Positions 21,173 through 42,951 of a stretch of DNA of 64,000 bases are shown piece by piece. Source of the stretch: Leucosporidium creatinivorum. Lineage: Eukaryota > Basidiomycota > Microbotryomycetes > Leucosporidiales > Leucosporidiaceae. The position numbers and the translations under genes are program-made. Below the pieces are notes generated by a model that was not told the DNA's origin, did not search any database, and saw only the letters and a list, made by a program, of their open reading frames with translations. The DNA is taken from assembly GCA_001600635.1 (NCBI GenBank), contig BCKL01000009.1:606755-670754 (forward strand), given 5' to 3'. Position 1 is the stretch's first letter, and every line of letters begins with the position of its first letter.

Positions 21173-22553
21173 ATGCCCTGCCCATCCCTGCCGACCGAGC
21201 TCCTCACCCAAATCATCTGCGAGGCCGCTATCGAGCTTCCCGAAGGAGACACCTACCAGCGCAACAAGGACCTTCGCTCCTTCTCCCTGGTCTCATCGCA
21301 GTGGAGGGCCATAGCTCAGGCCGAGCTCATTCGCCTGCCGACCGTTGGCACCCTACAAAGAATCCGCCAGCTCACCCACAAGATCTTGGTCGAGCCGCGC
21401 CTTCAGAGGAGGATGAAGCACCTTCGATTCTTGCCCAAAGGCAACGACGAGGGGCCTCTCGAAACGGCTTTGAGCGAAGTGCTCTTCGCTTCGAAGGTTG
21501 ACCTCGAATCGGTGTCGATTTGCTACCGCAACGTCTACCAGCGCAAGTGCCTTTGGCTCTGGATGTATTGGTGGAGTAAGTCTCACTCGTTTTAAGCAAG
21601 AACGTCCCGCTGACCTCTTCGTTTCTCCAGCCTGCTCTCATCTCACTTCGCTCGCCATCTCACACGCCGAGCTTCAGGTGCCTACGGAGGACAGCTGGCG
21701 CGAGATCCTCTTCCCAAATTTCAAGACTCTCGATCTGCGCCGCGTAATAATCACGACGGACGACGACGATCACTACTTGTGGAAGCTCAACAATCGCGCG
21801 TCCGAGATCGTCCTCCCCCTCGGCGACAGGGCAACCACTCCCGCTCTCCGTACGCTTCGCATCTCAGCCTCGGGATATGGAAGTCTCAACATTGGCGACT
21901 TTGTCGACCTCGCCGACCAGATTACCAACCTCTCCCTCGGCGTGTTCTCGGACCACGGCTTCCTCGAACCCGAGCTACTCGAAAAGTTCACCGCCCTCCA
22001 GACGTTCGAAGTGGATTGGCCGCTCGACGAGGACGTTCCCTGCTGGCAGCTCAAAGCGTCGGGTAGTCCTTTAAAGGAGCTCAGGGTCCGCGACCGCCAC
22101 GACCGCCATCTCGAAGAGAACGAATGGGATGAGATCGACGGCACCGAGGAGATCATGCATATCGAATGGAGTCCAGAGCGCGAGGGTCACGGAGGAGAGA
22201 TCAAAAGGCGTGCTAGTGAGCCCGAGGAGCAGGAGACCGAGGAAGAGGAGGAGGAGCGACTCGAGCTTGAGGATGAGAAGCGCTCGGAGGAGGACTACTG
22301 TCGCTTCGAGCGCCTTGAGCACATCGCCCAGAGGCTCTGCGACTCGATCGAAGACTTCCCCGAGCTTCGTACACTTGTCCTCCCCCCAAAATTCGCCACT
22401 GCACTCGCCGCACTCGACGAGTACCTCGACTACTACGAAGCTCCTCGACTTGCTGCTCAGTGCGAGGAGCTCGGCATAGAGATCAAGATTGAGGAGCGTC
22501 GCTGGGAGACGGACCTCGCTTACAAGCAGTTCGCTAACCCTGCTAGGAGCTGA
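21173..22553 (+). CDS. F-box-like protein with acidic region
   Basis: The start 'MPCPSLPTELLTQIICEAAI' followed by 'LRSFSLVSSQWRAIAQAEL' is an F-box-like pattern. An intron at about 21574-21630 joins 'WLWMYWW' to 'TCSHLTSLAISHAELQ'. The rest has leucine-rich segments ('FKTLDLRRVIIT', 'LRTLRISASG', 'ITNLSLGVFS', 'LKELRVRDR'), a strongly acidic stretch ('EEQETEEEEEERLELEDE') and the conserved-looking end 'RTLVLPPKFATALAALDEYL'. A likely 3' UTR intron starts two bases after the stop (gtgagt at 22556, acceptor near 22617). It probably acts as a ubiquitin-ligase substrate adaptor; target unknown. Its layout resembles the gene at 60.7-62.0 kb. Confidence 0.72.
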
Positions 22554-23062: not shown

Positions 23063-24116
23063 ATGGGATTCGCCGCTTTCACTTCGCCCGCCGCCCTTCA
23101 GGGACTCGAGGCTCACCTCACCCACGTCTCCTACATCGAGGGGTAAGCTATCTCTGTCCTGCCACAGCGCTAGCTGCTTGTCCCGAGCTCTCGGACGCGC
23201 TTTCGCCCTTTCCCCTTCCACGCCGCCCTCGCTCCCAAGTGTGATGATTACAATACTGGTCCGTGTTGCTTAGTAAGGGATTAAGACCCCGCCATACACG
23301 ATGCAGAGACCATTTCTAGTACCTCTGACTTGATTCCCCGACGACCGCTCTCACAACTCCACGTGCTTTTTTCCCCTTCGAACCGAGCGCTGACCTTTCG
23401 CCCCCTCTACTATCGACCTACACTCGACTCGACTTGTGCTCGCCCGCCAACTCAGATACGCCCCTTCGCAGGCTGATGTCGCCGTCTTCAAGGCCCTCCC
23501 TTCCGCTCCCGACGCTGCCACCTACCCCCACTCCGCCCGCTGGTACTCGCACGTCCAGTCCTACGAGGCCCAGCACGAGACTCTCCCCGGAGATGCCTCC
23601 AAGGATGCCACCGCCTACGGACCCTCCACCTCGGCCGCCGCCCCCGCCGCTGCCCCCGCCGCCGAGGAGGACGATGAGGATATCGACCTCTTCGGATCCG
23701 ACGACGAGGAGGTTGATGCCGAGGCCGAGGCCCTCAAGCAGAAGCGTCTCGCCGACTACGCCGCCAAGAAGGCCACCAAGGTCGCTGTTGTCGGCAAGTC
23801 CGTTGTCACCCTCGACGTCAAGCCCTGTGAGTTTTAGCGCTTTCTCTGTCTTCCCGAGAGCCTGTAGCTGACCCCGCTACTTACAGGGGATGACGAGACC
23901 GACATGGCCGCCCTCGAGGCCAACGTTCGCACCATCGAGAAGGAGGGCCTCGTCTGGGGACTTTCCAAGCTCGTTCCCGTCGGCTACGGCGTGAAGAAGC
24001 TCCAGATGACCGTTGTCATCACCGACGACGTCTCGCTTGACGACCTCCAGGACCAGATTGCTGAGGATGAGGATCACGTACAGAGCAGCGATGTTGTGGC
24101 CATGCAGAAGCTCTAA
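23063..24116 (+). CDS. EFB1: Translation elongation factor 1-beta (eEF1B alpha, EF-1 guanine nucleotide exchange factor)
   Basis: Cytosolic exchange factor that reloads eEF1A with GTP. Exon 1 encodes '[20 protein letters not shown]' through 'IEG' and is spliced over a 313-nt intron (23143-23455) to '[14 protein letters not shown]', the GST-C-like N-terminal module. The acidic linker '[16 protein letters not shown]' is the family hallmark. The catalytic domain has '[16 protein letters not shown]', '[20 protein letters not shown]', '[13 protein letters not shown]' and ends '[14 protein letters not shown]'. A second, normal-length intron falls between 'VKP' and 'WDDE'. Codon use is strongly biased to C-ending codons (GAC, AAG, GTC, CTC), fitting high expression. 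The long first intron carries a snoRNA (separate entry). The 3' end has been copied downstream at 25.8 kb. Confidence 0.97.
23236..23332 (+). ncRNA. snR18: Intronic box C/D snoRNA, U18/snR18-like
   Basis: It lies inside eEF1B intron 1. Box C is GTGATGA at 23241-23247, box D is CTGA at 23325-23328, and directly outside them CAAG (23236-23239) pairs with CTTG (23329-23332) as a terminal stem. The guide GGTCCGTGTT (23258-23267) is complementary to the universally conserved large-subunit rRNA segment AACACGGACC. It sits one base before a degenerate D' box, CTTA (23269-23272). By the D+5 rule the methylated base is the A of 'ACACGG', adjacent to the C. That fits the known U18 target pair (yeast 25S Am649/Cm650, from memory). 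In S. cerevisiae snR18 also lives in the EFB1 intron. The boxes and guide are visible in the sequence; the name rests on guide match and host gene. Confidence 0.85.
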
Positions 24117-24241
24117 GCGGGTCTTTTAGTTCGAAACCCGACTCCCTGACGAAGTACCCTACCCCCATGTTGATGCTATTACACTACACGAGTTCCCACT
24201 CGACGTCGACATGGACCCTGGCTCGTCTGGTCCGCGCCGAG
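24071..24241 (+). repeat. Direct repeat, copy 1: eEF1B 3' end (source copy)
   Basis: This 171-bp segment spans the last 46 bases of the eEF1B coding region and its 3' UTR, and recurs in direct orientation at 25810-25980. Aligned by eye there are only four substitutions and no gaps (about 98% identical). Two of these convert the stop-containing CTCTAAG to CTTCAAG in the downstream copy. It contains a small 3' UTR stem (CGGGT...ACCCG around 24119-24140). Confidence 0.95.
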
Positions 24242-24754
24242 AGCGGAGAGAGTGAGAGAAGTGCGAGCTAAGAGGAACGACCCCTCGCCGAGCTGAGCTG
24301 AGCGCTGTTGTGCGCTCGTGAGGCTTGGTCGAGGGAAGAGCTCATATCCATCGCTAGAATGTAGCTCCATCCTACAGCTCGTGCTGAGAAGCAGCGCAGT
24401 GATGTGTCGCGGGACTCGGATTTGGGGCTCGACGACGCCGAGCTGAAGAGTTGATGGGCTTCGGCAGGTCGATAGGTAGGCGGGCAAGGGGTTGAGCGCG
24501 TAGCGTAGTAGTCTATAGCATATCTGCTCTCGTCTCCAGTTGCAGCGGCTGAGAACAAGCGACCTTTCTCACTTTGAGGACTTGCTCAAGCTCGCCCCTT
24601 CGCCTCTTGATCTCCTCCCGTCACCTCGCTCGCTTCTACTCGACCGCTCGTGAGGCTCTACGGCCACTAGCAGCTACTATAGAAGCAGTGAGTACTACTC
24701 AACATCTCTCTCGACCTGCTCTGCACCCCACTAACTCACTCGCTCGCTCTACAG
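24117..24754. other. Intergenic region holding duplication relics
   Basis: This region holds the eEF1B 3' UTR (part of the 171-bp repeat), a relic of the 3' end of the WD40 gene (separate entry) and, from about 24590, the duplicated 5' UTR of the F-box-like copy A. That 5' UTR includes an intron whose acceptor CTCTACAG abuts the ATG at 24755. No independent gene seen. Confidence 0.7.
24391..24495 (+). pseudogene. Relic of the WD40 gene 3' end, copy A
   Basis: This stretch aligns by eye with the last ~105 bases of the WD40 gene (minus strand, 40646-40749), for example 'GACTCGGAT', 'GAGCT', 'TTGATGGG', 'TTCGGCAGGTCGATAGG' and the TGA. One base is missing before 'TTGATGGG' relative to the intact gene, so the frame is broken. 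Copy B at 26121-26230 shares that one-base loss. There is no upstream WD40 body here, so this is only a passenger fragment of the F-box duplication. Confidence 0.8.
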
Positions 24755-25420
24755 ATGAACGAACCCGCCGCGCTTAAGCTGCCTGACGAGACGTGGCTCG
24801 AGATCCTCGGTCAGCAGGGACTGGACTACCAAAATTTAAAGTGTGCTTGTAGGGTGTGCAAACGTCTTAACAAGCTTGTCAAGGTGCGCGAGAGCAGCAT
24901 GAGCAGCGGGCGGAGCTCGAGGGGAAGCTGACATCTGCTACTCTGGGTGCTACAGGATACCTCGCTCGAGGGTCTCCTCTTCCGCGCTGCTCCTACTACT
25001 CTCAAGAAGGGCACTTCGGTCGAGATCCACCCCCTGCTCGAGCAGACGATGATGACCTATATCGACTCGAGAGATGCCATCGTCCTCGGCGAGCGCACCG
25101 ATACCGAGTACAATGCGCACAAGCTTCGCAGCGCCAAAGACTTTGCCACCTCCCCCTCGACCAGATGTCTCATCATCAAGATGGCCAAGGGCCTCAAGCT
25201 CGAGAAGGAGACCGGCGTGACGGTTAGAGACGTCTTGAAGGCTGTGGGCAAGATGTGTAAAGAGCCCTATGCTGGAGGATACTCGGGATATGCGACGGGC
25301 TCCAGTACCTTCACCTGGCGCGATGCGCTGGGCGATCATAACGGCTGGACCGGATGGCAGGAGGCCAAGGTCAAGAAGGAGGGCGAGGTCACCCTCAACC
25401 ACAACCACTTCGACTCCTAG
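24755..25420 (+). CDS. F-box-like protein, duplicated family copy A
   Basis: Two coding exons. Exon 1 encodes an F-box-like module, 'LKLPDETWLEILGQQGLDY' then 'LKCACRVCKRLNKLVK'. Exon 2 (from about 24956) starts 'DTSLEGLLFRAAPTTLKKGT' and continues with 'VEIHPLLEQTMMTYIDS', 'TEYNAHKLRSAKDFATSPST', 'GVTVRDVLKAVGKM' and the C-terminal motif 'NGWTGWQEAKVKKEGEVTL'. The reading frame is intact. Exon phase, the 5' UTR intron ending at the ATG and a 3' UTR intron just past the stop are shared with copies B (26.5 kb) and C (40 kb). The likely role is an SCF-type substrate adaptor. The C-terminal domain is not one I can name with confidence. Protein sequence is closer to copy C than to copy B. Confidence 0.75.
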
Positions 25421-25809
25421 CTGTGTTCGGCCTGGAAAGTTGTGAGTGGGTTTACTGAAGGCAGCGGAAGACAGCAGACGTTGACCTTCCACCTTCGCAG
25501 ATCGAGCTCGGCGATGGACGCTCGGAGGCAAGCTTTCGCGTAGCTCGTTCTGCTGCTGCAATCACTTTCCGCTTCCAGATATGGGGCGAGAGGAGCCACT
25601 TTTTCTCCTCCCTCCGCCTGTTCATACGAGCGTCTCGCCTTCAGACCCTCGCTGTCCGAAGCGCCGAACTGGGTGGCTTCGCCGAGACATTTTGGGATCT
25701 GCTCGCTTCCTTCGTGCTCCCTAAGCTCGTCGAGTATATCTAAAGGCACTCTAGCTCCCATCCTAGCTACACAGAGCAAGCCGCCCGCTGCACACGCCTC
25801 GTTGACATC

Positions 25810-25980
25810 GGATCACGTACAGAGCAGCGATGTTGTGGCCATGCAGAAGCTTCAAGCGGGTCTTTTAGTTCGAAACCCGACTCCCTGACGAAGTACCCTA
25901 CCCCCATGTTGATGCTATTACACTACACGAGTTCCCACTCGACGTCGACATGGTCCCTGGCTTGTCTGGTCCGCGCCGAG
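25810..25980 (+). repeat. Direct repeat, copy 2: eEF1B 3' end fragment without the gene
   Basis: Near-identical to 24071-24241 (four differences in 171 bp by eye), offset 1739 bp. It contains the last 15 codons of eEF1B with the stop changed to CAA context, followed by the 3' UTR, but no upstream eEF1B coding sequence. The abrupt left border (homology starts at GGATCACG) marks a duplication breakpoint inside the eEF1B last exon. Confidence 0.95.
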
Positions 25981-26120
25981 GGTGACAAGGGAGAGAGAAC
26001 GTCAGCTGCCCCTCTCGCCGAGCTGCTTCGCCGAGCCTTGCTTCAGGCTGGTTTGGGCTCTTTGAGGCGAGTCGAGGCAGATGCAGCGCTATACTGTAGC
26101 TCAATCTTGGAGCTCGTGTT

Positions 26121-26230
26121 GAGAAGCAGTGCAGTGATGAGTCGCTGGATTCAGATTCGGGGCTGGGCAACGCCGAGCTGAAGAGTGGATGGGCGTCGGC
26201 GGGTCGATAGGCAGGCGAGCGAGGGGGTGA
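26121..26230 (+). pseudogene. Relic of the WD40 gene 3' end, copy B
   Basis: It aligns with the final codons of the WD40 gene at 40646-40749 (minus strand): 'CAGATTCGGG', 'GCCGAGCTGAAGAG', 'GGTCGATAGGCAGGCG' and 'GAGGGGGTGA'. Just past the TGA, 'GCTGTGTGTAGCAG' is closer to the original locus than copy A is. A one-base loss relative to the intact gene breaks the frame. It is a non-functional passenger fragment. Confidence 0.8.
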
Positions 26231-26498
26231 GCTGTGTGTAGCAGCGTAATCTGTAGCTTGACAAGCTTTCTGTTCACCTGCAACGAAAATGAGCCAGCTT
26301 GACCCCTCCGAGGACTTGCTCAAACTCGCCGTCCAATCCCCTTCGGCCTCTTCATCTCCTGCCATCACCTCGCTCGCTTCCCTTCGACTGCTCGTGAGGC
26401 TCTACGATCGCTGGTAGCTACTACAGCAGCAGTGAGCACTTCTCACAGCCTCTCCATGCCTGCTCTGCTCCGCACTAACGCGTTCCCTCGCTCTACAG

Positions 26499-27218
26499 AT
26501 GAACGACCCCGCCGCGCTCAAGTTACCTGACGAGACGTGGCTCGAGATCCTCGGACAGCAGGGACTCGACTACAAGGACCTCAAGTGTGTCGCGAGAGCT
26601 TGTCGACGTCTCTGCAAGCTCGAGAAGGTGCGTATACCGTCGACCGAGAGGACGACTCGGCGCTGACCTTCGTTCGCTCGGCGTGGCCACTCAGGACTCG
26701 TCGCTCGACTCGCACGCCTTCCGCGCTGCTCCAGCTACCACCAAGATCGCGCAGGGCTCCTCCGTCTCGATCCACCCCGTGCTCGAAGCCACCTGGCTCA
26801 CCTACATCGACTCGTACTGCGCCATCGTGAACAACTACACGACCGACACGGAGCACAACGTCTTCGACCTTCGGTGCAGGAAGGAATTCACTACTTCGCC
26901 TGCTACGAAACGCCTCGTCATGATATGGCCTTGGGAATCAAGATCAAGAGGAAGAAGGGCGTCAAGGTCAAGCACGTCCTCCTCGCCGTCGCCGAGATGT
27001 GGAAGCAGCCCGCTCCAGAAGATCTGGCTCAAAAGCTCCTGAGGAAGAGGAGGAAGGACAAGAAACGCTCCGCATGGGATTGGTTAGATGAGGAGGAGGA
27101 GACAGTCACTTGGTGGGACTTGTGTGAGGAGCGGAGGAGCTGGATGGGGTGGGAGGAGGCTGAGGTGCATAAGGATGGAGAGGTCACGATTAGGAATCGC
27201 GAGTTCGATTGGACTTGA
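26499..27218 (+). pseudogene. F-box-like protein, duplicated family copy B, frameshifted
   Basis: Exon 1 encodes 'MNDPAALKLPDETWLEILGQ' and 'LKCVARACRRLCKLEK'. Exon 2 begins 'DSSLDSHAFRAAPAT' and runs in one frame to 'SPATKRLVMI' (about 26925). The family homology then continues in another frame from 'MALGIKIKRKKGVKVKHVLL' to 'RSWMGWEEAEVHKDGEVTI' and the TGA at 27218. Compared with copies A and C a single base is missing between about 26918 and 26928. Because the sequence on both sides remains protein-like, the lesion is either recent or a sequencing error. No short intron with proper borders rescues it. Coding divergence from copy A is large despite the nearly identical eEF1B tail beside it. 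Confidence 0.72.
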
Positions 27219-27484
27219 CGTCGTACTGTCGTGTGAGTCTCCTGTAGCGCTCAGGATCTGAGGCCGCGGGATGCTGAAGCCTGCGCCTCGCAGACAGAGC
27301 TCGGCGATGAGATTCGAGCGGCGTTGCACTCAGCTCTTCGCTGCTGTAATATGCTGTCAAGCGATCGAGATATCGTACAACACGAGGGCTGTCATTACCG
27401 AGCGAGAACGGGAAGCAAGCCCTTCAGCTCCCTCCTCCACTCATTGCCGACATCAAAACCCTGTCTTGCGAACGGCGACACCGC

Positions 27485-28958
27485 TCAGAGCGCGAGAGCC
27501 TTAATGGCCATCTGCATAGCTCCATCTTTGGAGGCGTTTCCTGTGGCGGGGTAGCGACGGTAGGGAGGGTAGAGGAGGGAGGAAGGGAGAAAGTCAGCTC
27601 TCGGCGAGCGAAAGGGAACCAAAAAAGAACGACTCACCTCCGATGAAGCCGGCGGCGTGGACGAAGACGCATCCGGGAATACCACTGAGCTCGGAAAGAG
27701 CCTCGTCGCGAACTCCGCGCCACCTGTTGTGATTAGATCGAGGGTCCAGTCAGCTCGGCTCGCCTTGTCTCGACCAAGAAAGGCTGCTACAACTCACCCC
27801 TCGGGGAGGGCCTTCCTGCTCTCGAAGCTCTCGGCGCTCTTGGGGACGGCCTGGACGCGCCACTTGCCGGCGGGGTCGCCCTCGGCGTAAAGGACGTAGA
27901 GGGGGAGTTCGGCCTCGGGGATGGCCAGCTCGGTTTCGAGGATGTGGAGGTGCTCCTGTTGTTGCAGAGGGGAGTGAGTCAGTGGTGAGGAAGAAGGAGG
28001 AGGTAACGAAGAGGGATGGACGAACCTTCCAGGGCGAGAAGGAATCAAAGACGAGAACCTTGCCCGAAGGGTGGACCTGCTTCCTCTGCTCCACCGCGGC
28101 GAGGACGATATCCCTAGCAGGCAACCAGGCCTTGGCAGTGTAGTCGACCCTCTCCAAAAACTCCTTGCCGGCCAACTGGCTCGCCTGCTCGAACCTCTCA
28201 TCCAACAGCTGATCCGAGCTCTCCTCGTTCCAACGGGGGTTGAGGTGGCCCACGCGGGAGGAAATGTCGGTGCGCGAGCGGTAGAGGGGGACCGACTTGT
28301 GGTCGGGGAAGGCGTTGATGCCGTTGTCGATGCCGTCGAACGCTTCGATAAAGTCGGCGTAGAGCTTGGGGTAGAGGGTTTGGATGGTGGGGTTGGAGAC
28401 GGGGAGGGAGAGGATGATGGAGAGGATCTCTTGCCCGAAGTGCCTGTGTAGTGCGGTAGGAGTGAGGTGCAGAGGTGAAGGCGGGGGGGAGCGAAGGAGG
28501 AGGAGGGGAGACGAGAAAGAGACAGTCAGCTCTGTAGTTCAGTCATCACTGCAGCAGTGCAGCATACAGCAAGCTTCGCAGCTTCTCACTCACTTGTAGA
28601 CGAGACCAGCCGAGCTCAGCTTGGTGACGAAATCACCGCCAAAGACCTCGTTGAATCCTCGCTGGTGGTGGTCGAAGCGGAGCGCCTCGGCGTCGTAGAC
28701 TCCTCCTACATCGACTACAACGGTGCAGTCCTCGAGGATGGCAGGGTCCCTAGAGCGGACCAAGTCGGCGCTCTTGTACGTAGGCAATTGGCGCAAGAGG
28801 AAGACGGCGAGAGCTTCGTCGGCGTGAAAAGTGCCAGAGTGAGTGCCGATTAGAGGGGAAGTGCGAGCCTTCTTGGCGATAGGAGATTGAATAGAAGACA
28901 TGTTGCGAATTGAACTAGTTTGAAGTGGTCGAGAAATGCGAGGTAAGAAGCGGAGCAT
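27485..28958 (-). CDS. MYG1: MYG1 family exonuclease (UPF0160)
   Basis: MYG1 proteins are DHH-like 3'-5' exonucleases acting on RNA in nucleus and mitochondria. The motif 'IGTHSGTFHADEALAVFLLR' is diagnostic. It is followed by 'DCTVVVDVGGVYD', 'RFDHHQRGF' (DHH-type metal site), 'KLSSAGLVYKHFG', 'FIEAFDGIDNGIN', 'SRVGHLNPRWNE', 'VLVFDSFSPWKEHLHILE' and 'WRGVRDEALS...GIPGCVFVHAAGFIGG' to the end 'AMQMAIKALAL'. The ATG at 28958 gives an Arg-rich, amphipathic leader ('MLRFLPRISRPLQTSSIRN') that looks mitochondrial. A second ATG at 28901 would skip it and leave the basic 'AKKAR' near the N-terminus. The two starts could serve dual localisation. About five introns. Confidence 0.93.
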
Positions 28959-39353: not shown

Positions 39354-39689
39354 GGGAGGGATTGCTTGTTAAAGTCTCGTAGTCTCATAGCTCGATGCTG
39401 GAAGAACTCGCTCCGTTTCGACTCGGTCTCTTTCGCTCCGAATCGCTCGGCTTCCTAACTCGGCTCGTCTTTCCTCTCTGCTTCTCTACGCGGCGGAGCA
39501 GAACTCGCCAGAGCTACACGGCTGTAGATTCGTTGAACACAGATCACAGATTGCTCAGGTAGAAGCGTTACGCAAAGCTTGTCCGTCCGTCGCCATCGCC
39601 GAGCTCGGCCTGCGAAGAAGACGGGATGAGCTCCTCGCCTCGCTCGTTCGCCACCGACGGAAGACGTACCATTGGTGTGTATCTCGACG
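39354..39689. other. Convergent intergenic region
   Basis: About 335 bp between the Rds1-like stop and the stop of F-box-like copy C (minus strand). The right half (39520-39690) is the copy C 3' UTR. It shares 'GAGCTCGGCGATGG' and 'CAAGCTTT' with the 3' UTRs of copies A and B, just after a probable 3' UTR intron acceptor. No gene seen. Confidence 0.6.
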
Positions 39690-40375
39690 CTACGGATCGA
39701 AGGGGCGGTGCTTGAGGGTGACTTCGCCGTCCTTGAGCACTGTCGCCTTCTGCCATCCCATCCATCCGCGCGCTCGATACACCACCGCCCAATAAACCTC
39801 CCCATCCTCGTCGCCGTACTCCAAAAACATGTCCTCTCCGACCATACGGTCGGGCACACGCTGATACCAGGTTCCGCTGAGCTCCTCCAGAACGTCTTTG
39901 ACCGTTACGCCGTTCTCCTTCTTGAGCTCGACGCCGTCAGCCATCTTGATCATGAGGCGCTTGGTTGAGGGCGAGGTGGCAAAATCCTTGGTGCAGTGAA
40001 GCTTGTGCGCGTTGTACTCGGTCATGGTGCGGTCTCCAACGACTGGGGCTTCTCTCCAATCCATCCCGGTGATCATAGTCTCCTCGAGCAAAGGGTGGAC
40101 CTCGACGGAAGCCCCCTTCTTCAGAGTAGTAGGAGCAGTGCGGAAGAGGAGAGCGTCGAGCGAGGAGTCCTGTCGCGCCGAGAATACGTAACGAGCGTCA
40201 GCTCCCCTCGTGCCGCTCCCTTCCAGCTCGCACTGCTCTCGCGCACCTTGACGAGCTTGTTGAGACGCCTGCAGACCCTCGAGGCACACTTGAGGTCCTT
40301 GTAGTCGAGTCCCTGCTGTCCGAGGATCTCGAGCCACGTCTCGTCAGGCAACTTGAGCGCAGCGGGGTCGTTCAT
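39690..40375 (-). CDS. F-box-like protein, duplicated family copy C (probable source locus)
   Basis: Two coding exons. Exon 1 (from the ATG at 40375) encodes 'MNDPAALKLPDETWLEILGQ' and 'LKCASRVCRRLNKLVK'. Exon 2 begins 'DSSLDALLFRTAPTTLKKGA', then 'VEVHPLLEETMITGMDWREA', 'TEYNAHKLHCTKDFATSPST', 'GVTVKDVLEELSGTW', 'DMFLEYGDEDGEVYWAVV' and 'RGWMGWQKATVLKDGEVTL', ending 'HRPFDP'. Compared with copy A it has extra acidic/aromatic residues before the C-terminal W-x-GW motif. Because its 5' side is the intact 3' end of the WD40 gene, whose fragments accompany copies A and B, this is the likely donor locus. Role: probable ubiquitin-ligase adaptor, unproven. Confidence 0.78.
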
Positions 40376-40645
40376 CTGCAGAGCGAGCGAGCGAGTTAGT
40401 CTGGTGCAGAGTAAGGTGAAGTAGGCTGTGAGAAGTACTCACTGCTTCTGTAGTAACTGTCAGCGGTTGTAGAGCCTCACGAGCGGTCGAAACAGCGGCG
40501 AGCGAGGTGATGGCGGGAGTCTGAGATCAAGAGGCGAAGGGAGAGGGCGAGTTTGAGCGAGTCCTCGGAGCGGAGAAGCTTGCTCAGTTTCGGTGCAGAC
40601 AAAGGCAAGGCGTGTCAAGCTACAGAATACCCTGCTACACACAGC

Positions 40646-42644
40646 TCACCCCCTCGCCCGTCTCCCTATCGACCTGCCGAATCCCATCAACTGCTCGAGC
40701 TCTGCATCGTCCAGGCCCGAATCCGAGTCCTGCTCCACATCACTCCACTCCTCCCCGCTTTCGAAATCATCATCCAAGTGAGCATGCCTCATGTCCACCT
40801 CCCCCACCTCCCCATCCTCATCCTCGCCCATCCATCCCCTGCCGTGCCCATCGCGCCACAGCGCATCCTCCCTTCCATCATTATCCTCTAACAACGCATC
40901 AAAGTATTCCAACGCCGCCGTATCTTCACCAAGACCTAGCTGCTCTTCCTCGTCCTCGTCGCGGGTGTCCAGGCCGGCTTTGTTCGGTCGAGGTTTGCGA
41001 GGGATGAAGGGCGCCGAGAGGGTGGAGAAGGGCGTTGGGGAGTGGACTACGACCATCTTCTCGATGCCGGAGGTGAAGAGGAGGGGGAGGGAGGGGTGGA
41101 AGAGCGCGGTGTTGACGATGGAGCGGTGGGTGGAGAGGATGTGGGAAGGAGTGGAGAGGGAGACGGGGATGGTGAAGTCGGGGAAGGACTCGGTGCGGGT
41201 GTCGAAGGCTGTTCACGATGAGTAGGGGATGTCAGTGAAGTTGACGCTACTCGAAAAAGATGCAAGATCACTCACCGACGTTCGGTACATCACCAGTGAA
41301 CCAATCCTTCGCAGTATCGCCCGGCGCTCGCCTGCCCTCCCTCATCGCCTCAAGACTTGGCACCTCCCACACATACGCATTGAAGTCGTCGCTCCCCGCT
41401 GCATACCACAGCTTATCGCCGCTCCCACCAAAGCTGCCATGCTTCGTGGTCGTCGTGTTCCTGTAGCCCGAGGTCTCCGTTCTCGGCGATGAAAAAGTTG
41501 CGAGTGGTTCGGGGGAAGAGAGCTCGAAGAGGGTAGGGTAGAACTGTGACATGGTAGCGCACAGTAAGGAGCCGTTGGGCGAAAAGGTGATGGAGGAGGA
41601 AGATGGCGCGGCAGGCTGATAGGTAGTGATCTCGGTGGTGGGGAGGAGAGGATTCGGTTCGGCCGGCGCGAGAGGCTTGAGCAGATCGGTGCAGTACTGT
41701 GAAGGCGTGAAGGGTCAGCGATACGGATTGGGATGGCACGCAGCTCTGTTGAACGACAACAGGCGACTCAACCCACTTTGAGGACGGCGACTTCACTTGC
41801 GAGACGACCCTCCGCCGCCGAATCGCCGAAAGCCATGCGTGCGTCGTGCAGCAGCACCCTTCCATCTCCATCGGCGGTAGCGAACTGAGTCGGCTGCAGA
41901 GGATGATAGACCACATCGTTCATCTCTGTCCGCTCTGCAAGGATACCGACTGCCCTGCCCTCGGTCCTTGTGTCGAACGACTGCACCGTGCCGTCCTCGC
42001 TGGCGGTCATGAAAAGATGGGGGTCGGAAGGGTGACACCGTACAGCGTGCACGCTGTCGTCGTGGTCGATCCAGACGTCGGTCGGTGCTCCTGAGGGGCC
42101 GGTCGAGCTGGAGGCGGCCGTCTCGAGGTCGTGCATGAGGATGGTGGCGTCGGCACCGGTGGAGAAGAGCTTGCGATTGTCGCAGTCGAATGAAATGCTG
42201 AAGATGTTGGCCTGTGTGCAGAGGGAGGTGAGCTTCAAGGCGCTCGGCGAAGACTTTGAGCATCAGGGAAGGGCCTTTCGACGACTCTCGAGTCCCTGGA
42301 AGCAGTGCAAGAACTCAGGAACTCACTCTTGCGCCTCTGTACCTCGCTACAGGCTTCTGCTCCCCTCCCAGATCCCCCAAAATTGACCAGAGCTGCACCA
42401 CCTTGTCATCTCCGCCGCTTGCGAGGTACTTGCCGTTGCCGTTGGAGCAGCTCAGAGCGTTCACACACGACTCGTGCGCCGTGAGCGAAGTGTGGTGCGG
42501 GAAGCCAGCAGCGTAGCGAGAGGAGAGAGCCGAAGCTGCTCGTCTCGCAGGGTGAGCGAGAGCAGGGTCGGCGAATGCTGTAGCTCTGCGCTTGCCTAGA
42601 GCGTTGGTGGAGGGAGTTGGAGGTGCCAGATTGACGAGTTGCTG
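40646..42644 (-). CDS. WD40-repeat protein, DCAF-like (CUL4-associated factor type); 5' end unresolved
   Basis: WD40 blades are readable in order: 'LTAHESCVNALSCSNGNGKY' with 'LASGGDDKVVQLW', 'NIFSISFDCDNRKLFSTGAD', 'DDSVHAVRCHPSDPHLFMTA' with 'SEDGTVQSFDTR', 'NDVVYHPLQPTQFATADGDG', 'SITFSPNGSLLCATM', 'LWYAAGSDDFNAYVWEV' and 'HRSIVNTALFHPSLPLLFTS'. The 'C..NAL.FS..G..L.SGGDD' first blade and 'ANIFSISF' second blade resemble DCAF5-type substrate receptors of CUL4-DDB1. A long acidic tail ends 'GLDDAELEQLMGFGRSIGRR'. The first confident exon starts at or before 42644. No ATG lies in it, so a short upstream exon holding the start is likely between 42645 and 42953. Its last ~105 bases were copied twice to 24-26 kb. 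Confidence 0.8.
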
Positions 42645-42951
42645 CTGAGCGAAGAGGTGACAGAAGACGTAAGAGAGCAAGAGAGCTCGCTTCGCTTCTC
42701 TCCCTCTTCCTTCTCACTCGTTAGCCAGGTTCAACTCGTTCCGCACCTTCCGCTTCAGCTAAACGGCTACAGCTGTGCCCTTGCCCCTCAAGGAGATCGT
42801 CAGCCTTCTCTCCTCTGCTCCACAGCAGCTCATCAGGTGCGTCTCTCCCCCGCCTCGCTCACAGCTCTCTGCTCTCTGCACTAACTCACACCGTCGCCGG
42901 CAGCAGCTTGGAAGCAACCCACACCCTCCAGCACGTTCTAGCCGCCTCAGC
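42645..42951. promoter_or_regulatory. Divergent region between the WD40 and SRAP genes
   Basis: About 300 bp that should contain the missing first exon of the minus-strand WD40 gene plus the promoter and 5' UTR of the plus-strand SRAP gene. Candidate minus-strand ATGs exist at 42833 and 42953, neither confirmed. Confidence 0.4.

Follow-up and report, generated by a model that had tools for sequence, protein, structure and literature searches.

Introduction

The F-box gene fog-2 of Caenorhabditis elegans and its paralogue ftr-1 are among the closest described parallels to a duplicated locus which we analysed in a 64,000-nucleotide stretch of fungal DNA (contig BCKL01000009.1, positions 606,755 to 670,754; in the following, the window), and from which they differ in host and protein family. 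Our locus contains three copies of a unit composed of the 3' end of a gene for a WD40 protein, a leader with an intron, an F-box gene and its 3' untranslated region (3' UTR). Fog-2 and ftr-1 are reported to be paralogues with ectopic gene conversion (PMC3966223, PMC3449122, PMC9121179), and in Caenorhabditis paralogues the surviving conversion tracts are reported to be commonly 50-200 nucleotides long (PMC3966223). Likewise, the paralogues described here have short conversion tracts, the two sharpest of which comprise 103 and approximately 170 nucleotides.

In PMC3449122, fog-2 is treated as a partial duplication with recruitment. Unlike in fog-2, the extra sequence at our locus is located upstream of the duplicated gene and corresponds to the coding 3' end of an adjacent gene. 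The partial and chimeric gene duplicates reviewed in the same paper (PMC3449122) resemble our locus in that gene borders are ignored, a part of an adjacent gene is taken along and the end of a third gene is joined later; the difference is that here the WD40 piece and the piece of the third gene, eEF1B, are upstream and outside the predicted new protein. At the protein level, the copies are similar to F-box proteins of Microbotryomycetes with a DUF6699-like remainder (PF12937, PF20415), with which they share the N-terminal position of the F-box and an E/D-FATSP motif strongly conserved among the family, the A and C proteins being below the DUF6699 cut-off. Literature searches on F-box proteins in Leucosporidium and on DUF6699 found nothing describing this locus, and no wider absence is claimed. 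The locus is a clear example of well-known processes and is ordinary in kind.

Three copies of a WD40-tail/F-box unit

Judged from the sequence comparisons below, the locus is probably best explained by an old duplication at the DNA level, tandem copying behind the eEF1B gene and, later, patchy gene conversion. We refer to the three copies of the unit as A, B and C, to a fourth F-box paralogue as D and to proteins from database relatives by P-numbers. The copies and their F-box genes are located in the window as follows (aa, amino acids):

24390-25550, plus strand: unit copy A
26125-27350, plus strand: unit copy B
39560-40752, minus strand: unit copy C
24755-25420, plus strand: F-box gene of copy A, 197 aa, exons 24755-24883 and 24956-25420
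26499-27218, plus strand: F-box gene of copy B, exon 1 26499-26627, exon 2 from 26695, frame break near 26918
39690-40375, minus strand: F-box gene of copy C, 202 aa, exons 40375-40247 and 40169-39690

Self-BLAST of the window with E values up to 1e-5 yielded four off-diagonal matches, all of which belong to the duplication of A, B, C and eEF1B sequence: 24071-25267 versus 25810-27011 (A and B, 73% identity), 24390-25241 versus 40752-39884 (A and C, 77%), 26125-26786 versus 40752-40084 (B and C, 78%) and 25342-25421 versus 39768-39689 (A and C, 75%). A DNA search with the A unit in its own genome (27.7 Mb in 63 contigs, the window being on a contig of 872,580 bases) returned A, B and C only, with C in two pieces; this and the other counts from genome searches are lower bounds. 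Both results agree with the sequence-only reading, which had placed three copies at these sites. An interruption of the homology at the WD40-tail/F-box junction had been named there as evidence against a duplicated unit, and we found that the homology across this junction is continuous in A, B and C.

The F-box genes of A and C have one intron within the coding part and a leader intron which ends at the ATG, and B has the same layout; conserved borders point to a 3' UTR intron in A and C. Since introns are retained in all three copies, the copying was DNA-mediated, and a retroposed gene copy, for which intron loss is expected, was rejected. Homology across gene borders and retained introns characterize a segmental duplication with a fragment of a neighbouring gene, and in this the earlier proposal of such a duplication is borne out.

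Pieces of unrelated genes can also be joined when a transposon captures and spreads them, and Helitrons and Pack-MULEs are transposons which capture gene pieces. Around B we detected one imperfect inverted pair (26015-26035 with 27287-27307, 16 of 21 positions) in a loose arrangement. However, this pair is only 76% complementary, none of the nine inverted pairs in the region 23900-27700 is similarly placed around A, and the genome search revealed three places only, so that capture by a transposon has minimal probability. The borders of A and B, where target-site duplications would be expected, are in diverged linker sequence.

Source of the copies

The following elements are informative about the direction of copying:

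40646-42667, minus strand: WD40 gene, last exon 41208-40646, stop codon followed after approximately 270 bp by the F-box ATG in copy C; putative source of the relics
24390-24497, plus strand: WD40 relic (3' coding end) of copy A, with a one-base loss also in B
26081-26230, plus strand: left extension and WD40 relic of copy B, the relic starting at 26125
24242-24389, plus strand: linker and left extension common to A and B, without match in C

The WD40 gene, read from position 42667 as a provisional start, encodes a protein which matches PF00400 (2.5e-21), is 89% identical to P0037 and is DCAF5/WDR22-like by the names of two relatives. At C the WD40 tail is in frame through the stop codon, and 34 of the last 35 residues are as in P0037, the orthologue from Leucosporidium creatinivorum. 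A coding tail at this place, together with its conservation in L. creatinivorum, makes C the likely source and strengthens its earlier designation as the donor. The WD40 relics of A and B (108, 107 or 106 columns long, depending on the alignment) have the same one-base loss, as already noticed by the sequence-only reading. Moreover, the linker and the left extension of approximately 50 bp to the left of the relic are similar in A and B, with none of 500 shuffles reaching the same quality in either comparison, and the left extension has no match in C (395 of 500 shuffles as good for A versus C, 91 of 500 for B versus C). The shared loss, the left extension and the linker homology suggest that A and B originate from one composite derived from a C-like source.

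In one frame, the last 13 codons of the A relic read MGFGRSIGRRARG, the same as in the WD40 protein. Coding rescue of the relic was considered for A and B; the private changes are at codon positions 1, 1 and 3 in A and 3, 3 and 3 in B, and were not taken as a coding signal.

We propose that a segment with the last approximately 107 coding bases of the WD40 gene and the complete F-box gene approximately 270 bp downstream was copied from C to a site behind the eEF1B gene, now approximately 15 kb away. The composite of eEF1B end, linker, WD40 relic and F-box gene would then have been duplicated in tandem, resulting in A and B.

Age of the copies

A protein search with C found three relatives and an alignment search found 36, including those three. 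Among the named relatives, the F-box and WD40 proteins have their best matches in L. creatinivorum, and the DNA is taken to be from a Leucosporidium-like basidiomycete yeast. In a 10-row protein tree of exon 2, with four of seven inner branches open, B grouped with its nearest protein, P0007 from another genome (support 100/99), and a B-type clade with two L. creatinivorum sequences was also recovered (99/99). A single clade of A, B and C was rejected by the approximately unbiased (AU) test (p 1.3e-60). The same two B groups were present in a 16-row tree (100/99 and 97/99). Because D and one outgroup form long branches there and seven of its 13 inner branches are open, the 10-row tree was built, leaving out D and five outgroup rows.

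The grouping of B with proteins of other genomes and the rejected clade argue against a recent lineage-specific triplication. As judged from these trees, at least the split between B and A/C is older than the species split. The copying events would have taken place before the lineage separated from those of L. creatinivorum and P0007, which the tree shows for B versus A/C and which we infer for the rest. The sequence-only reading had considered itself refuted if all three copies proved ancestral: this is the case for B versus A/C and may be the case for A versus C. Thus, the earlier interpretation is partly supported: it is right in outline, but not in the sense of a recent triplication.

Partner switching along the unit

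Informative sites supporting the pairs A-B, A-C and B-C were counted in ten segments, which were drawn after the alignment had been seen. In the relic, the counts for the three pairs are 11, 9 and 5. Just behind the relic they change to 5, 3 and 21, and the identity is 0.82 for B-C versus 0.65 for A-B and 0.62 for A-C, so that the earlier remark on the closeness of B to C past the relic stop holds for 21 of 29 informative sites. The first 93 bases of exon 1 also favour B-C (1, 2 and 12), while early exon 2 favours A-C (20, 54 and 16). None of 5000 permutations was as uneven over the ten segments, which is in line with the previous suggestion of more than one event or conversion. In codons 1-31 of exon 1, B-C has a silent divergence of 0.11, where A-B and A-C each have 0.73; in exon 2 it is 0.87 for B-C in the first part and 1.14 for both A-B and A-C in the second part.

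Short tracts of raised identity, partner switching and diverged flanks, as found here, are typical for ectopic gene conversion. Short conversions would have followed the tandem duplication: a recent one of approximately 170 bp from the eEF1B end into the relic in front of B (see below), one between B and C in the post-relic region and the first approximately 100 bp of exon 1, and one between A and C in early exon 2.

Could uneven selection alone, with a fast exon 2, a slow exon 1 and a slow relic, have produced this pattern after a single recent duplication history and without any conversion? Selection on exon 1 and on the leader is plausible, and A-B and A-C have equal silent divergence both in exon 1 and in the later part of exon 2. 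However, the drop of the B-C silent divergence to 0.11 is confined to codons 1-31 of exon 1, the partners switch along the unit, the eEF1B relic differs at only 4 of 170 sites without having a coding duty, and the tree rejects a lineage-specific triplication. This explanation is largely refuted and we regard it as quite improbable.

A similar homogenisation may be visible in a relative. In P0004 (L. creatinivorum, 389 aa), which looks like two adjoining F-box genes fused in one gene model, the two halves are identical in their first 48 residues (48/48) and visibly differ in the rest. This suggests that homogenisation of exon 1 may recur.

The eEF1B sequence in front of copy B

The block which precedes both A and B stems from the following gene:

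23063-24116, plus strand: eEF1B gene (EF-1 beta), 226 aa, three exons, from which the block in front of A derives
24072-24241, plus strand: eEF1B 3' end and downstream sequence, a block found also in front of B
25811-25980, plus strand: eEF1B 3'-end relic preceding B and lacking the stop codon

The eEF1B protein matches PF00736 (EF1_GNE, 2.7e-30) and PF10587 (1.4e-13), and a genome search with the block returned two places. The two copies of the block differ at 4 of 170 sites, whereas 95 of 181 sites differ between A and B in intron 2 and the 3' UTR. In addition, the block ranks first among the segments when A is aligned with B (0 of 2000 permutations), and the identity steps sharply at both of its ends. 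Based on the contrast to intron 2 and the 3' UTR, the eEF1B end in front of B was probably re-copied recently. The statement that the unit sits behind eEF1B at A and B is thus correct as to the presence of eEF1B sequence at both places, but the piece in front of B seems to be considerably younger than the unit which follows.

Alternatively, the eEF1B fragment in front of B could have been inserted late and separately, and would then not be what the tandem duplication left there and conversion overwrote. This would fit the sharp identity steps, the coincidence of the left edge of the block with the edge of the A-B homology, and the missing counterpart of the A-B spacer after B. On the other hand, A and B have a homologous linker between block and relic, which implies that the junction is shared and old; we therefore consider a late insertion unlikely. 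Preservation of the block as a structured RNA or another functional element would account for the high identity of a non-coding stretch, but the window has no tRNA, the block has no Rfam match at E values up to 1, and its folding is no better than that of shuffled sequences (z +0.48). The sole Rfam match (E 0.61, 25298-25494) is outside the block and below the gathering score. These results leave room for unstructured regulatory elements, and altogether a functional element has little probability here.

Several points weigh against the history of old duplication, tandem copying and conversion. The first is related to the sequence between A and B:

25550-25809, plus strand: spacer between A and B, in which an open frame terminates, its stop codon ending at 25743

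A simple tandem duplication would predict a counterpart of this spacer after B, which was not recognisable in the 90 bases compared (37 of 500 shuffles as good). Second, the direction of copying is indicated by a single feature, the relic. Third, P0006 is nearest to A by path, but a group of A and P0006 is outside the best tree and not rejected (AU p 0.375), and none of the L. creatinivorum proteins in the 10-row tree is clearly of the C type, which weakens any assignment of orthology for A versus C. Further, the gene order in the relatives was inferred from P0037 (WD40) and P0001 and P0004 (F-box) of L. creatinivorum, for which the same longest contig of 33,747 bases is listed and taken as one contig. 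When half of the A-B divergence in the relic is used as a milder yardstick, the eEF1B block stands out only moderately (p 0.0035), and constraint instead of conversion is a possible reason for its identity. Finally, the segment permutation test gave 0 of 2000 for every pair and setting and also flags ordinary uneven selection; the case for conversion is thus based on the contrast at silent sites and on the eEF1B block, which is non-coding.

The spacer itself was the only sequence returned when it was searched in its own genome. Its open frame of approximately 57 residues has no Pfam match (54 residues scanned) and a weak match (E 0.025) to an open reading frame at 21498-22553.

Possible promoter function of the WD40 relic

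The relic ends approximately 260 bp before the F-box ATG and is followed in copy A by a conserved stretch:

24595-24690, plus strand: conserved 5' leader of copy A up to the donor of the leader intron, partly also in paralogue D

Neither relic is read as WD40 sequence, and yet only 16 of 108 sites differ between A and B, compared to 66 of 121 silent sites (Fisher 2.5e-10) and to the above 95 of 181 intron and 3' UTR sites (8.6e-11, relic length 107). The comparison with silent sites gives 1.4e-6 for A-C and 1.4e-7 for B-C, in which C is under coding constraint. These silent-site tests leave out codons 32-43 of exon 1 for A-B and A-C and, due to the converted patch, all of exon 1 for B-C, and their p-values are approximate since the silent-site counts were rounded. 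A far better conservation of the non-coding relic than of introns and silent sites suggests a promoter function.

A generally young 5' half of the unit does not explain this conservation, since the silent sites of exon 1, approximately 260 bp from the relic, are diverged for A-B and A-C (9 of approximately 19, compared to 33 of 204 for relic and leader together; p 0.003). Patchy conversion which skipped exon 1 is a possible explanation. In favour of a promoter, no single pair dominates among the informative sites of the relic, and the A-B differences in it are distributed over the codon positions without clear bias (4, 5 and 7). It is tempting to speculate, though with some doubt, that the WD40 gene contains, in its 3' coding end, a promoter for the F-box gene behind it, that this end was copied along for this reason, and that the relic still acts as a promoter in A and B and is conserved in this role. 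If so, a promoter buried in the coding end of a neighbour would have to be copied as coding sequence and later kept as regulation, and the locus would show one reason why fragments of neighbours survive beside duplicated genes.

F-box proteins and further paralogues

The Pfam scan of the F-box copies covered the A and C proteins. Both exceed the curated cut-off of 24.3 bits for the F-box (PF12937; C 33.7 bits, 3e-08; A 29.2 bits, 8.1e-07), and both are below the cut-off of 24.1 bits for DUF6699 (PF20415; C 18.3, A 14.6), a domain matched by 10 of 20 relatives at E 0.01. The remainder of the protein may thus be at most distantly related to DUF6699. In B, the frame of exon 2 changes near position 26918, yet the sequence on either side still resembles the relatives; the break is either recent, making B a pseudogene, or an assembly error.

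AlphaFold2 modelling of P0001 with 20 of the 36 sequences found gave a mean predicted local distance difference test (pLDDT) value of 86.5. In a structure search with this model, aimed at the fold of the second domain, none of the 37 listed matches reached E 0.001, and Skp1-bound F-box chains were among the best listed ones, with weak support (best E 1.4). A sequence search of solved structures gave six matches at E values up to 1, with F-box chains from 0.056; the best one, a chemokine (E 0.016), was taken as a chance match. An F-box is expected to bind Skp1. Because of their family membership, the products are expected to be substrate adaptors of Skp1-cullin-F-box (SCF) ubiquitin ligases; the exon with the F-box stays conserved and exon 2, DUF6699-like and presumably target-binding, diverges.

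Paralogue D, a fourth F-box gene, is on the same contig at approximately 728.2-729.0 kb (C9; positions 1300-2150 of locus L016). It contains a part of the leader, a WD40 relic is not detectable, and by our reading it has an exon 2 frame break of its own. Nine more matches to the F-box protein at E values up to 1 are located on contig C10 between 176 and 401 kb (L015, L017-L020 and L022-L025), of which L019 and L024 are probably exons of one gene. They form a loose cluster of more distant F-box relatives.

Conclusions

The locus is a compact case in which duplication ignores the borders of genes and conversion gives the parts of one gene different ages. Thus, any one tree or identity value for such a gene is misleading.

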